Below are positions 7,787 to 13,933 of a stretch of DNA of 38,336 nucleotides, piece after piece. A program made the position numbers and the translations under genes. The stretch covers positions 1-38,336 of the forward strand of contig JAKMGP010000011.1 of assembly GCA_022424905.1 (NCBI GenBank), read 5' to 3'. The notes beneath the pieces were generated by a model. It saw nothing but the letters and a program-made list of their open reading frames with translations, was not told the DNA's origin and did not search any database. This DNA is from Akkermansiaceae bacterium (GTDB lineage Bacteria; Verrucomicrobiota; Verrucomicrobiia; Verrucomicrobiales; Akkermansiaceae). Each line of letters starts with the position of its first letter. Within the stretch, counting starts at the first letter, position 1.

Positions 7787-10525
7787 CTAGTAACCTAGCC
7801 ACGGCCCTAGCCACTTTTCAACTTCTTCAATACCTAGTTCTTTCCGCGCCGAGTAGTCTTTAATCTGATCTTTTTGTAGATTATCTATCATGAAATAGTG
7901 CGAGTCGGGATGAGAAAAGTAGAGTCCGCAAACCGCTGAGCCAGGATACATCGCACAAGATTCAGTAAGTTCGACCGCAGTTTCTTCTTTGGCTTTGAGA
8001 AGCTCAAAAAGGATGCGTTTCTCTGTATGGTCGGGTTGGCTGGGGTAGCCTGGAGCAGGACGAATTCCTTGATATTTCTCGTGGATGAGTTCCGACTGAC
8101 TGAATTGTCCCGGGCGTTCGATTCCCCAAGCGATACGGGCTCGGTGATGTAAGAGTTCAGCAAAAGCTTCAGCAAGGCGGTCAGCAAGGGCTTGGACCAT
8201 GAGCGCTTCGTCGATGTCGTTCTGTTCACGAAGTTCTGATGCCCATTCATCCGCCCCATGAATTCCAACGACAAAGCCCCCGAGGTGGTCTTGCTTTGGT
8301 GAAACGTAGTCGCTGAGGGCATAATTAGGTTTTCCAGACTTCTTATTTTGTTGGCGAAGGGTATGGAAAGTGACGTTTTGATCGGGTAGATGGATGTCAT
8401 CTCCAACTGCTTTGGCGGGGAAGAAACCGTAGATTCCGGAGGCAGTGAAACGCTTTTCGATAATGATTTTCTCGAGAAGCTCTTTAGCTTCACTGTAGAG
8501 TTGTTTTGCGACCTTTCCTCCTTCCTTATTCCGGGTTTTGAGTGTTTCAGTTTCGGGGTTCCAAACGCCACGTAGCTCCCAGGTATGGAAGAAGGGGGTC
8601 CAGTCGATGTAGTTTGCGAGCTCCCGCAGCGATTGGGATTTGATAGTGCGAGTCCCCGTAAATTCAGGAATGGGTGGGTTGTAGTTTTCCCAGTTTATCG
8701 TGACCTTATTAGCGCAGGCCTGTTCGATGGAGAGAGCTGCCTTCTTTTTGCCTCCGTTAAACTTCTCTCGAGCTTTTTGATGGTTTTCCTGATTGGTGTT
8801 GATGAAAATTTGGCGATCTTCGGACAGAAGGGCGGTTGTGACCGGGACAGACCGAGAAGCGTCGAGGACGTGAACAAGTGGACCTGTGTAATGTTCTGCG
8901 ATTTTGATGGCGGTGTGGGCGGCGCTGGTCGTGGCTCCGCCGATAAGGATTGGAATATTTTTATTTCCGAAGCCTCGTTTTTCGGCCTCCTTGGCGACGG
9001 TGATCATTTCGTCGAGCGAAGGGGTAATGAGCCCGGAAAGGCCGATGATGTCGGCGTTGTGTTCTTCAACTGCATCTAGGATCTTATCGCAGGGGACCAT
9101 TACCCCCATATCGACAACGTCGAATCCATTGCAGGTGAGGACTACTCCTACGATGTTTTTTCCGATGTCGTGAACGTCACCTTTGACGGTAGCCATAATG
9201 ACTTTACCGTTCGAAAAGGATTTAGTGGCAATAGCGCGCGCTTCTGATTGGGAGAGTGCAGAGTTTTCCGAACAGAGGAGGGCTGCTTGCATTACAATTT
9301 TTGCTTCGCGTTCCTCTTCCATAAGCGGCTCGAGCCATGCGACGGATTTCTTCATAACTCGGGCGGATTTTACAACCTGAGGAAGAAACATTTTACCAGC
9401 TCCAAAAAGATCACCCACAATCCCCATGCCATCCATTAGAGGCCCTTCAATGACGCTAAGGGGTTTCTCGTACTTGGCGAGTGCCTCTTCAGTGTCCTCA
9501 TCAATAAACTTATCGATACCTCTTAAGAGAGAGTGCTCGAGGCGTTTTTCGATGGATTGTTCACGCCAGCTAAGATCTTCAACGAGCTTTTTGGCTCCTT
9601 GACCTTTGAATTCCTCAGCGAGATCAAGAAGGCGTTCAGTTGCCCCGCGGTCCTTGTTGAGTAGGACATCTTCAACTGCAGTGAGAAGGTTTTTCGGGAT
9701 CTCGTCGTAAACCTCAAGCATGCCGGCATTTACAATACCCATGTCCATTCCAGCTCGAGTAGCATGATAAAGAAAAGCCGAATGCATGGCTTCGCGAACG
9801 GCATTGTTACCTCGGAATGAAAAAGAGATATTGGAGACGCCTCCGGAGACTTTTGCGAAGGGGAGATTGTCTTTTATCCAGCGGGTGGCGTTGATGAAAT
9901 CGAGGGCATAGTTGTTGTGCTCTTCGATGCCAGTAGCAACAGTGAGAATGTTAGGATCGAAGATGATATCTTGGGGAGGAAACCTAACCTCATCAACAAG
10001 GATGTCGTAGGCGCGTTTGCAGATACGACATTTGTCTTCGTAGGTGGCCGCTTGGCCTTGTTCATCGAAAGCCATCACAACAACGGCTGCTCCGTAGTTT
10101 AAAATATGTCTCGCATTATTTCTAAAAGCTTCTTCGCCTTCCTTGAGCGAAATGGAGTTGACGATCCCTTTTCCCTGAAGGTGTTTGAGGCCTTCCTCGA
10201 TGATTTCCCACTTTGAGGAATCGACCATGATAGGGACGGCTTGAATGTCGGGTTCAGCCTGAATAAGATCGAGGAACTTAGCCATCATGAGCTTCCCGTC
10301 GATGAGGCCATCGTCGAAGCAAATATCGATGACGTTTGCTCCATTTGCGACCTGCTGGCGAGCGACTTCGAGAGCGTCTTCGAGCTTGTCTTCTTTAATC
10401 AATTTTCGGAAGCGAGGAGAACCGGCAACGTTAGTTCGTTCTCCGATCATTAGAAAATTTTTGTCAGGAGTGTGATTGTAAGCTTCGGTGCCTGAGAGCC
10501 GGAGGAGACGAGGGAGTGGGGACAT
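7787..10525 (-). CDS. metH: Methionine synthase, folate-, cobalamin- and SAM-binding part
   Basis: A 912-residue protein that corresponds to E. coli MetH without its first (homocysteine) domain. In order: interdomain linker ([11 protein letters not shown]); pterin-binding barrel ([16 protein letters not shown] at about 27-42, [37 protein letters not shown]); cobalamin cap helices; cobalamin domain with GDVHDIGKN (His about 452, the lower ligand of the cobalt); and the C-terminal reactivation domain ([15 protein letters not shown] and [14 protein letters not shown]). It takes a methyl group from 5-methyltetrahydrofolate onto cob(I)alamin and passes it to homocysteine held by the neighbouring gene product. 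The linker is complete, so this looks like a designed gene split rather than a broken gene. It lies 52 bases after the first part. Confidence 0.95.
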
Positions 10526-10577: not shown

Positions 10578-11666
10578 CTAGGCGGTGGTAAGAGAGGGGA
10601 CGGGACGGGGGGCTTTTCCTTGGACTGATTTGGCGATAGCTGCGATGTGTTCGGGAGTGTTGCCGCAACAGCCGCCGGCCAAATTGAGGAGTCCAGCATC
10701 GGCAAACCCGGCGATGTAATTGTGCATGTCTTTTGGTTCAAGGTCGAATCCTGTTGGAGCAAGCGGGTTGGGAAGTCCAGCATTGGGATAACACGAGATG
10801 TGAGTAGTGGCTGCTTTTCCGAGATCGCGGAGAAAGGGCTCCATTAGATCTGGGCCAAGCGAGCAGTTGAGGCCAACAGCGAGGGGGTTAATGTGAGCGA
10901 AGGTGTTCCAGAGAGCCTCGACTTTTTGGGCAGAGATCATGGTTTCACCGCCACGACCAACGGCGGCGGAAATAATAACAGGTGCTGCGGTTTTTGATTC
11001 ATTGATCGCGACTAGAGCTGCTTTGGCATTCAGAGAATCAAAAATGGTTTCAACCATGAGAATATCGCAGTCTTCTTCTAAGAGAGCATCGATTTGGTGG
11101 CGGTAGGTTTGTTTGACTTGATCGAAGGTGACCGGGCGGAATGAAGTGTCGTTTGGGTCGACGACGTTGGTGAGAGAAACAGTCAGGGGGCCTATGGCCC
11201 CGGCGACATAACGCTTTCGCCCGTCATTTTGGGAAGCTCGGTCGGCTTGCTCTTTGGCGAGTCGGACTGATTTCACGTTAAGCTCGTGGACTAGATCCTG
11301 AAGTTTGCTGTTGTTGAGAACCTTTTTCTCAAAGAATTCGGGATCTTTAGTGCCGCCAGTTTTTCGTGGATCTTGGACAAAGAATTCAGATTGAGCTAAA
11401 ACCGTTCCAGAAAAAGTATTGGTTTCACAGATGTCAGATCCAGCCTCGTAAAACCGTTTGTGGATGTCACCGATCACCTTGGGCTGAGTGATGGAGAGAA
11501 TATCGCCGTTATTCAAAAGGTCTTCGTTATTATCCTGAAAACGTTCGCCACGGGCATCTGATTCGCAGAGTTCGTAACCGCGGATAGTCGTCCCCATAGC
11601 TCCATCTAGGACTAGGATGCGCTCGCCGAGGGCTGACTTGAGTTCTTCGCTAAGGTTAGGTGTCAT
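10578..11666 (-). CDS. metH: Methionine synthase, homocysteine-binding part
   Basis: A 362-residue protein matching the N-terminal homocysteine S-methyltransferase barrel of MetH: ILVLDGAMGTTIRGYEL near the start, the ETNTFSGT motif, and the zinc cysteines at 268 (GLNCSLGP) and 333-334 (GGCCGNTPEHI). It binds and activates homocysteine as a zinc thiolate. In most bacteria this is fused to the cobalamin part; here the frame ends at a TAG about 28 residues past the zinc motif, and the rest is a separate downstream gene. Single-domain relatives such as BhmT or MmuM exist, but position directly before the rest of MetH makes a two-subunit synthase far more likely. The start at 11666 faces a divergent infA region containing a promoter-like sequence and a perfect palindrome. 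Confidence 0.94.
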   Translation of the reverse strand: MTPNLSEELKSALGERILVLDGAMGTTIRGYELCESDARGERFQDNNEDLLNNGDILSITQPKVIGDIHKRFYEAGSDICETNTFSGTVLAQSEFFVQDPRKTGGTKDPEFFEKKVLNNSKLQDLVHELNVKSVRLAKEQADRASQNDGRKRYVAGAIGPLTVSLTNVVDPNDTSFRPVTFDQVKQTYRHQIDALLEEDCDILMVETIFDSLNAKAALVAINESKTAAPVIISAAVGRGGETMISAQKVEALWNTFAHINPLAVGLNCSLGPDLMEPFLRDLGKAATTHISCYPNAGLPNPLAPTGFDLEPKDMHNYIAGFADAGLLNLAGGCCGNTPEHIAAIAKSVQGKAPRPVPSLTTA

Positions 11667-11721
11667 TGGCTTGTCTTGCGCGGACTTTCGGAAGAATTAA
11701 ATGATTTTCAAGTTCAAATCT

Positions 11722-11737
11722 ACATATCGCGATATGT
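11722..11737. promoter_or_regulatory. 16-bp perfect palindrome upstream of metH, candidate operator
   Basis: ACATATCGCGATATGT is perfectly self-complementary over 16 bases. It lies 56-71 bases before the metH start and just downstream of a promoter-like pair, where a bound dimer would block transcription. Methionine-cycle genes in other bacteria are often controlled by ArsR-type regulators (such as SahR) that bind AT-rich palindromes. Linking this site to such a regulator is inference. Confidence 0.55.
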
Positions 11738-11742
11738 TGATA

Positions 11743-11770
11743 AGTTTAGTTAAGGCTATCTTGTCTTCAA
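11743..11770 (-). promoter_or_regulatory. Possible sigma-70-type promoter for metH
   Basis: Reading the minus strand, TTGAAG (11770-11765) and TAAACT (11748-11743) are separated by 16 bases, resembling -35 and -10 boxes. The expected transcription start would fall inside the palindrome at 11722-11737, giving a leader of about 65-70 bases before the metH start. Consensus matches are moderate, so this is tentative. Confidence 0.35.
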
Positions 11771-11817
11771 GAAACAGGCCATTAAATCACCTTTTTTTCC
11801 ATTGCTAAGCAAGTTTT

Positions 11818-11854
11818 GAGGGCACATAGTTCGCCAGAGGCGCGTTTCGCCCTC
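11818..11854 (+). promoter_or_regulatory. Structured leader before infA with competing hairpins
   Basis: GAGGGC (11818-11823) can pair with GCCCTC (11849-11854). Inside, GGCG (11839-11842) can pair either with CGCC at 11832-11835 (3-base loop) or with CGCC at 11848-11851 (5-base loop); the second choice uses bases needed for the outer stem. Such exclusive pairings are typical of leaders that switch state. The element ends 22 bases before the proposed infA start. No run of T follows, so control of translation is more likely than termination. Confidence 0.35.
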
Positions 11855-11876
11855 ACTAATTCAACAATTTTAAGTT

Positions 11877-12188
11877 ATCGCTAGACCAAGAAATTTTCGA
11901 AGAGGCGGCGGCGGTGGCCGGCGGCGGGGTCGTCGTAATGTCGACAAGAGCAATCGTGATTCGGATGAAGGCAGTGAGCAGAAGTCTGTCGAAATTGAAG
12001 GCACAATCGCAGCCGTTTTAGCCGGAACAATGTTCAAGGTGGCTCTTCCGAGTGGTCATGAGGTTCTCGCGCACATCTCCGGAAAGATGAGAAAGCGGTT
12101 TATTCGCCTCGTTGTTGGCGACCGTGTCAAAATGGAAATGTCACCCTACGATACTACGAAGGCGCGAATTGTATTTCGTCTTGGTTGA
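11877..12188 (+). CDS. infA: Translation initiation factor IF-1 with Arg/Gly-rich N-terminal extension and apparent AUC start
   Basis: Residues from about 40 to the end form a complete IF-1: VEIEGTIAAVLAGTMFKVAL, then GHEVLAHISGKMRKRFIRL, then GDRVKMEMSPYD and ARIVFRLG before TGA at 12186. IF-1 is an OB-fold protein that sits in the 30S A site and assists IF-2 and IF-3. Upstream, the frame stays open to a TAA at 11871-11873, yet contains no ATG, GTG, TTG or CTG before the core; the only in-frame ATG (codon 54) is inside the OB fold. The plausible start is ATC at 11877, two codons after that stop, giving 103 residues beginning (M)ARPRNFRRGGGGGRRRGRRN. IF-1 is normally about 72 residues, so the tail is extra. 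An assembly error at the start codon is the main alternative. Confidence 0.85.
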   Translation: MARPRNFRRGGGGGRRRGRRNVDKSNRDSDEGSEQKSVEIEGTIAAVLAGTMFKVALPSGHEVLAHISGKMRKRFIRLVVGDRVKMEMSPYDTTKARIVFRLG

Positions 12189-12280
12189 TTTCCACTTCCT
12201 CGCCGAGTCCGGCGGGGCTTAATCTTCTTCGTCCTTGCGGGGGCTAGCCGAGAGGACTATACCCTTCCAGCGCCATTGAC

Positions 12281-13933
12281 GTGGCAGGCTACTTAACCAG
12301 AATCGTTATTTTGGGACTTGTTGATCAAATTAGACGCTGGAGATTGGTCCAGAAGGGGCTTTCTTCTGGTAAGAAGCGTCGCACCAGCACTGATGGTGGT
12401 GCTTTGGCTGCAATGGACAGTAGCCTGATCGTTCGTGGGGCACTGTATGCGGGGTTCAGTCTCGGTATGTTCGCTTTGTTCTCTGGTGTTCAATATATTG
12501 ATTCTCGAGCTGCCGAAGCGGTCGTCATTCTGGTGTGTGGCCTTGCCATTTTCCATCTTAACCATCAACGGTCGGCCCAAAGGAACGGTAGCGTGTTACT
12601 GGTCTTCGGTGGTATCTTGATTCATCTATGGGTGGTCAAATTGGCCAATGGAGTGGCTTTGCAGTCTGACCTAGGGGAGCACTATGAGTTTTTGGTGATG
12701 CCAATCGCGCTCGCCCCGATGGTGCATTCGGTCTTACTTGGCCAGCGTGCCGGGGTTTATTCCTCGGTCTTCGTAAGCCTCTTTGGGGCATTGACGATTC
12801 CAAGTGATGATCGCTGGGCTTTCTTTGCGATTAGCTTAATCTGCGGCCTGACGTCGGTCTTTGCTACGAAGCGAGTGAGTAAGCGGGGGCGTCTCCTGCG
12901 AGCTGGTTTTTGGGTTGGTGTTATGGCGCTTTTGGTCGACTTAGTTTTCGCCAAGATTTCGGTGAGTGGTCTTCAAATGTTTAGCGGCGAAAGTTGGACA
13001 ATTTTTGGGAAAGCCTGTTTGGTTGCGCTTTCGACCGGTCTACTAACCGGCCTGTTCGTCGGTGGGGTGCTTCCTTTGCTCGAAGGTCTGTTTGGTTTGA
13101 CGACTGAGATCTCGTGGCTGGAGCTTAGTGATTTGAATCATCCGCTGCTCCGGAAAATGCAGATTGAGGCACCGGGAACATTTCATCATAGTCTAATTGT
13201 GGCTTCGTTAGCGGAAAGTGCCGCGGAGGCGATCGGGGCAAATGCGGTAATGAGTCGTGTTTGTGCTTATTTTCACGATATCGGGAAACTGAATAAGCCC
13301 GAGTATTTTATTGAGAACCAGGGGGGCATGAATCCTCATGACGGCCTGACTCCGACTATGAGTGCGCTCATTATTGTTGCGCACGTCAAAGATGGCGTGG
13401 ATCTGGCGATCAAGAATAAACTGAACCCAAGAATTCTTGACGTGATTCAAGAGCACCACGGCGATTCGTTGGTCTACTATTTCTATCGTAAGGCTCAGGA
13501 GCGGCTTCAGAAGCACGAAGTTGACGAGGATCATGGGACGACTGATTCCGATGATCTTCCTAAAGTGGATGAGAAGAGTTTTCGCTATCCGGGGCCGATT
13601 CCTCAGACCCGTGAGAGTGGGATTATTTCGCTTGCAGATGCTATTGAAAGTGCCTCGAGAACCATTTCCAAGCCCTCTCCGAGCAGAATCCGGGCTTTGG
13701 TGGACGAGATTGTTTTTAAAAGGGTGCGCGATGGTCAGCTGGATGCGACTGGTCTCACTATGACCGATTTAACAATGATTCGGAAAATTTTTGCATCGAC
13801 TCTCAGAAGCATGTTGCACGCGCGAATCGAGTATCCCAAAGAGCAGATTGAAGATGCTCCTTCAGATCTTTCTAGGAAGGGTGGTAAATTGGTTTCAGCG
13901 GAGGAGATAGAAAAGGTGCGCCGCCGGCGGTAG
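12281..13933 (+). CDS. Membrane HD-domain phosphohydrolase, PgpH-like (7TM-HD)
   Basis: A 550-residue protein. About seven to eight membrane helices span residues 50-270, followed by a cytoplasmic HD domain: FHHSL at 301-305, YFHDIGK at 330-336 (metal-binding His-Asp), GGMNPHD at 348-354 and EHHGDSLVYYFY near 395-406. This is the arrangement of PgpH, which degrades the second messenger c-di-AMP, but the large extracellular sensor domain that PgpH carries before its helices is missing here. The N-terminus instead has a short basic segment (IRRWRLVQKGLSSGKKRR). A GTG at 12281 is the chosen start because the basic segment is typical of relatives; an ATG at 12413 is the alternative. ybeY follows after 11 bases, the same pair seen in Firmicutes. 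c-di-AMP as substrate is inferred. Confidence 0.85.
   Translation: MAGYLTRIVILGLVDQIRRWRLVQKGLSSGKKRRTSTDGGALAAMDSSLIVRGALYAGFSLGMFALFSGVQYIDSRAAEAVVILVCGLAIFHLNHQRSAQRNGSVLLVFGGILIHLWVVKLANGVALQSDLGEHYEFLVMPIALAPMVHSVLLGQRAGVYSSVFVSLFGALTIPSDDRWAFFAISLICGLTSVFATKRVSKRGRLLRAGFWVGVMALLVDLVFAKISVSGLQMFSGESWTIFGKACLVALSTGLLTGLFVGGVLPLLEGLFGLTTEISWLELSDLNHPLLRKMQIEAPGTFHHSLIVASLAESAAEAIGANAVMSRVCAYFHDIGKLNKPEYFIENQGGMNPHDGLTPTMSALIIVAHVKDGVDLAIKNKLNPRILDVIQEHHGDSLVYYFYRKAQERLQKHEVDEDHGTTDSDDLPKVDEKSFRYPGPIPQTRESGIISLADAIESASRTISKPSPSRIRALVDEIVFKRVRDGQLDATGLTMTDLTMIRKIFASTLRSMLHARIEYPKEQIEDAPSDLSRKGGKLVSAEEIEKVRRRR

Follow-up and report, generated by a model that had tools for sequence, protein, structure and literature searches.

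The gene for initiation factor IF3, infC, begins with AUU, AUC or AUA (together called AUH below) in many bacteria, with ATT in E. coli and ATC in Streptomyces (PMC5472188). Streptomyces sigR has a conserved non-canonical GTC start that is repressed by IF3 and had been missed by annotation (PMC5472188). Conserved AUU and AUA starts with an extended Shine-Dalgarno (SD) sequence are also described, with an output of about 10% of that of AUG in poor medium (PMC13009471). AUH codons are non-canonical, and both IF3 and IF1 act against locking when the ligands are non-canonical (PMC4611024). Regarding infA, the gene for IF-1, a UUG start is known from chloroplasts (Hirose et al. 1999, cited in PMC9845219).

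The infA gene of Akkermansiaceae resembles each of these systems in part. Like infC, it encodes an initiation fidelity factor and very probably begins with AUH, but its product, IF-1, is not the main discriminator. Like sigR, it has a conserved non-canonical start, but sigR encodes a sigma factor, its codon is GUC and its start was shown by experiment, whereas that of infA comes from comparison of sequences (PMC5472188). The cvfC1 (AUU) and ccpN (AUA) genes of Staphylococcus and its relatives share with infA a conserved AUH codon and, with about half of its AUH loci, a strong SD; they do not encode initiation factors, and their initiation was mapped by Ribo-Ret (PMC13009471). The chloroplast infA likewise has a non-AUG start that limits its expression, but UUG is canonical for IF3 and the gene belongs to an organelle (PMC9845219). 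Conserved AUH starts with a strong SD are already known from infC, ccpN and cvfC1, next to the GTC of sigR, and infA would join them. An AUH start of a bacterial infA was not reported among the literature matches listed, and it is surprising for both the gene and the organism. IF-1 is essential, and it is not known to be regulated through its start codon. In eukaryotes, eIF1 is autoregulated through the poor context of its AUG; it is likewise a fidelity factor that controls the strength of its own start site, but by AUG context and a scanning mechanism, and without homology. If the reading proposed here is true, autocontrol of initiation factors would extend from IF3 to IF-1, in most genera of a family that includes the heavily studied gut commensal A. 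muciniphila. The annotated start sites of infA in this clade are probably wrong, because gene finders depend on ATG, GTG and TTG (PMC5472188).

The window, which is the whole stretch of 38,336 nucleotides analysed, carries the infA frame on the forward strand at positions 11874-12185, with its stop codon at 12186-12188, as identified by reading-frame analysis. Read from AUC and with the stop included, the CDS spans 11877-12188. The product was assigned to IF-1 by TIGR00008 (90.4 bits, cut-off 61.15), which matches residues 36-103, the OB fold, and by PF01176 (77.6 bits, cut-off 30.2). It is composed of a basic, Arg/Gly-rich N-terminal tail (11880-11978) and the OB-fold core (11979-12182). An in-frame TAA (11871-11873) is followed by GTT (11874), ATC (11877-11879) and then GCT AGA CCA. 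As this TAA lies two codons upstream of the ATC, in-frame initiation further 5' is excluded in the window. The earlier note on this DNA had claimed that infA lacks an ordinary start codon and that AUC at 11877 is the only near-cognate start keeping the whole tail. Both claims are borne out: ATG, GTG, TTG and CTG are absent from the frame between the TAA and the OB core, and the only AUN codons from the TAA to the core glycine are the ATC at 11877 and an ATT directly before that glycine. The first in-frame ATG, at 12030, is inside the OB fold, as had been said. The ATG at 11938 is indeed in the wrong frame, offset by 61 from the ATC, and was therefore rejected as a rescue of the gene; of 20 genomes of the same genus, some have an ATG with this offset and others do not.

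In the family, the window IF-1 was matched in 192 of 195 genomes, at least eight of which have only weak, paralog-like matches, and three genomes have no match. The 5' ends were read for strong infA matches with retrieved coordinates, and genomes with a weak match or none lie outside the counts. A search of 27 genomes of the window's genus gave a strong match in 21; the homologous codon is ATC in 20 of these 21, the window's own genome included. The remaining genome, G126 (L015/L039), lacks both AUH and ATG at the corresponding position. The sequence 5' of its IF-1 core is GC-rich, possibly a misassembly or a divergent tail.

Once identical stretches from -60 to +60 were removed, the family and its sister family f6 together have 83 unique AUH loci (72 ATC, 8 ATT and 3 ATA) and 83 unique ATG loci. 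At the level of genomes, 82 have AUH and 50 have ATG, a duplicate G010 row having been taken out of the ATG set. L015 and L039 (neither codon) and L102 (contig end) are left out of the tallies. L177 and L197 were assigned by hand to ATG, and L106 and L187 to AUH; two Akkermansia sequences (L106/L187 and L160) have a tandem ATT, and which AUU is the start there is uncertain. AUH loci were chosen partly by their second codon (GC, CC, AGC or AAC), so counts of second codons are biased. The AUH genera are g1, g2, g4, g5, g6, g8, g9, g11, g12, g14, g15 and g16, and the ATG genera are g7, g10 and g13. Akkermansia (g3) has both, with AUH in 14 and ATG in 27 of the 41 genomes read, and all three genomes of f6 have AUH. 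Named strains are found on both sides: A. muciniphila CSUN-56 (ATC), Roseibacillus persicicus (ATC) and Persicirhabdus sediminis (ATA) have AUH, and A. glycaniphila, Haloferula luteola, Haloferula rosea and Luteolibacter marinus have ATG. In further families of the order and in other classes (6, 18 and 30 loci; L224, L231-L235 and L268-L315, read separately and outside the AUH/AUG tallies), each locus has ATG, GTG or TTG at a plausible place.

The earlier note had named a conserved ATC, ATT or ATA in related genomes as support for its reading, and this is what was found, in 12 genera, part of Akkermansia (g3) and the sister family. It had also named, as grounds against it, ATG in close relatives and a base error or indel near 11877. 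The near relatives lack ATG, which does occur in other lineages of the family. The assembly of the window genome (4.05 Mb) is fragmented into 347 contigs, which could favour a base or assembly error in this MAG as the origin of the ATC, but independent assemblies have the codon in common: it is the same in 19 others of the genus, and AUH is found in named strains of other genera. This explanation was rejected, and its probability is negligible.

The AUH loci of the relatives were also used to locate the start. In 53 of the 83, the frame from the upstream stop to residue 36 holds no canonical start, and 50 have an in-frame stop at most 10 codons 5' of the AUH codon. A canonical in-frame codon that keeps part of the tail is present in 29 loci (23 only upstream, five only downstream and one both); 13 of these have an upstream ATG, and in L013 and L017, of the window's genus, and in L122 the upstream TTG or ATG has its own SD of at least 5 nt. 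Among 20 same-genus genomes, aligned without gaps, differences at -30 to -1 have no codon rhythm (0.53/0.53/0.50 by codon position). In codons 2-9 they fall to 0.05/0.05/0.24, and in the rest of the N-terminal tail they are 0.29/0.21/0.56. Two other genera, g12 and g16, agree: upstream they give 0.46/0.47/0.36 and 0.45/0.44/0.36, opposite to the rhythm of coding sequence, and in codons 2-9 the figures are 0.05/0.08/0.20 and 0.06/0.02/0.18, respectively. Judged by these patterns, coding constraint in infA begins at the ATC codon. The codon itself is ATC in 20/20 of these genomes, whereas three Ile codons of the same gene are mixed ATC/ATT (7/13, 4/16 and 8/12); the 20 genomes are related, and the fixation of ATC does not amount to 20 independent events.

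An internal start, for instance at the GTG of the VEVEG motif, would leave the N-terminal tail unmade. Many relatives have a GTG two or four codons before the core glycine, and to our knowledge E. coli IF-1 has no such tail. However, the window has GTC and ATT at these places, and the relatives do not retain the GTG consistently. Coding constraint on the tail reaches up to codon 2, and the SD sequences stand 5' of the AUH codon, which makes an internal start very unlikely. The comparisons suggest instead that infA very likely starts at the AUH codon, and it is there that we infer actual initiation.

Of the 83 AUH loci, 42, A. muciniphila included, carry 5' of the AUH codon an SD that is at least 5 nt long; the same search shifted 45 nt upstream, used as a control, gave 3/83. 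The spacing is 6 nt in 26 of the 42 loci, 7 in seven, 5 in six, 9 in two and 4 in one, that is, 5-7 nt in 39 of 42. Examples are locus L026, caacaaaggagcacactATCGCAGG, and the A. muciniphila locus L051, ttacaaggagaatcctATCAGC. Only one of the 83 ATG loci has such an SD, at a spacing of 16, and none has one at normal spacing; the Fisher p-values near 1e-14 in the AUH/ATG comparison ignore shared descent. By genus, the SD is present in g2, g3, g9, g11, g12 and g14, as well as in f6, and absent in g1, g4, g5, g6, g8, g15 and g16. The window's genus has it in 0/20 and g16 in 0/12, which counts against the reading for these two genera. The base at -1 is T in 81/83 AUH loci against 37/83 ATG loci, and the base at -2 in 60/83 against 41/83. 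In the window's genus U is at -1 in 20/20 and at -2 in 17/20, and in the window the TT directly 5' of the start codon is at 11875-11876. The ATG genus g13 keeps T at -1 in 6/7 genomes. The relatives, the SD spacing and the -1 U context thus support the AUC start as the best reading of infA.

The leader was analysed for structure as well. In the window, a hairpin is predicted at 11817-11855 by the minimum-energy fold. A stem at about that position recurs in the genus while its sequence changes: across 20 genomes the place is fairly constant, with the apex at about -33 and a mean z of 2.1. The corresponding figures are 0.76 in the other AUH loci and 0.91 in the ATG loci, and the stem is therefore at most a feature of the genus. 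Folding of -70 to -15 differs little between the two sets (mean z -1.33 for AUH and -0.78 for AUG), and in both sets -18 to +30 shows less folding than its shuffles (+0.99 and +0.88, respectively). Rfam gave no match up to E 1 on 11600-12300, and a promoter scan of 11600-12350 gave a single site, which lies downstream of infA; shuffled sequences yield as many.

In order to identify how the AUC would be decoded, the initiator tRNAs were searched. The anticodon arm AGG-CTCATAA-CCT was found in 27/28 genomes, and ARAGORN places a tRNA-Met (CAU) there in 26/28. With a CAU anticodon, AUC would be read with a third-position mismatch, the case discriminated against by IF3 (PMC4611024, PMC5472188). 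If the initiator tRNA were instead a special one whose anticodon is GAU or modified, it would read AUC fully, and the start would not be weak. The preponderance of AUC (72/83 AUH loci) over AUU and AUA would fit such a tRNA, but the initiator-type tRNAs found have CAU, and a pattern left open at anticodon position 34, with two mismatches allowed, gave in 10 genomes a single G34 match (G014), where ARAGORN has no tRNA. On these gene sequences, which cover tRNAs of this stem type, we rejected the special tRNA as extremely improbable and take the ordinary CAU initiator as the probable decoder. Two further features of the initiator tRNA were observed. Its anticodon stem normally has three G-C pairs, of which one is here replaced by A-U (L380 = G000:C21:1302-1314; L364-L391, L403), and this AGG/CCT stem also occurs in other families of the class and shows no link to the AUH infA clade. 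The initiator tRNA of the window genome has the C1:A72 mismatch typical of initiators, and a few others differ at pair 1:72. A U at -1 or -2 is said to have been described by Esposito et al. in 2003 as extended pairing with A37/A38, and the TT at 11875-11876 could in principle extend pairing with the CUCAUAA anticodon loop.

Taken together, we propose that the ordinary CAU initiator tRNA would read the AUC at 11877 to give fMet-Ala-Arg-Pro-Arg-Asn-Phe-Arg..., with the Met probably removed. Owing to the third-position mismatch the start would be poor and discriminated against by IF3, and its strength presumably reduced. A usable level may be kept by upstream help, which would come from a strong SD where there is one, as in about half of the AUH loci, and from the U at -1, often also at -2; in the window's genus, which lacks the SD, the leader hairpin could perhaps be the helper. 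IF3, with IF1 as its helper, rejects AUH starts, so IF-1 output would fall when fidelity factors are plentiful and would rise when they are scarce, as for infC. The AUH start thus probably makes IF-1 output sensitive to the start-codon proof-reading in which IF-1 itself takes part. From the published biochemistry, we consider it fairly likely that IF-1 is in this way under IF3/IF1-dependent feedback. The account as a whole, with AUC read by the CAU initiator, discrimination by IF3 and an infC-like feedback on the level of IF-1, seems to us the likely explanation of these sequences. Such feedback, if it exists, can be dispensed with, since AUG is found in part of the family.

The main alternative accepts AUC as the real start, which would only set a constant low level of IF-1, or low noise, without feedback. 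AUH starts lower output (PMC13009471), the SD and the -1 U resemble a tuning of strength, and the AUG lineages have no SD, all in its favour. Against it, the published mechanism makes AUH starts sensitive to IF3, so that some coupling is hard to avoid, and a start needed only for its weakness could equally be GUG or UUG, yet the clade keeps AUH. We regard a constant level without feedback as rather unlikely.

The start of infC was also read by eye, in 30 loci of the same clade. AUH was found in 23 of the 28 resolved (16 ATA, 6 ATC and 1 ATT), and the support for an AUH start of infC in this clade appears good but not certain. An ATG lies 13-15 codons downstream of the infC AUH in 21 of the 23, the other two being L258 and L259. 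In five Akkermansia (g3) loci (L236, L240, L244, L247 and L250) the infC start seems to be GTG. The two genes differ in their starts, infA being mostly AUC with U at -1 and infC mostly AUA with C at -1. The base 5' of the infC ATA is C in 15/16 loci, so a U at -1 is not required for an AUH start. A tentative extension of the feedback account is that infA (AUC) and infC (mostly AUA), whose start codons their own products would reject, could form a two-factor fidelity rheostat in Akkermansiaceae, and that in Akkermansia IF-1 might have become the stringency sensor. The latter idea is based on the GUG of infC there and on the AUC of A. muciniphila infA with its strong SD. We would put this below an even chance.

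Regarding the evolution of the AUH start, on an rpoB tree of 30 genomes AUH needs three changes, and 0/500 shuffles were as low. With the tree rooted on a single f4 row, the distribution reads as one AUH gain before the f1/f6 split and two returns to AUG, in the g7/g10/g13 clade and in the G002 line of g3. The G002 branch is long. The tree includes one of the 27 ATG genomes of g3 and lacks A. glycaniphila, and further AUG returns are therefore possible.

Some other loci deserve mention. Weak second IF-1 matches occur in many genomes of the family. One of them, a second and distant IF-1-like frame at about 1473-1694 of L002 (G000:C16:8061-8234; PF01176 29.7 bits, below cut-off), stands directly upstream of what reads like selB. 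In the window, methionine synthase appears as two adjacent separate genes, at 7787-10525 and 10578-11666, which from reading of the frames we take to be MetH, and which are divergent from infA.
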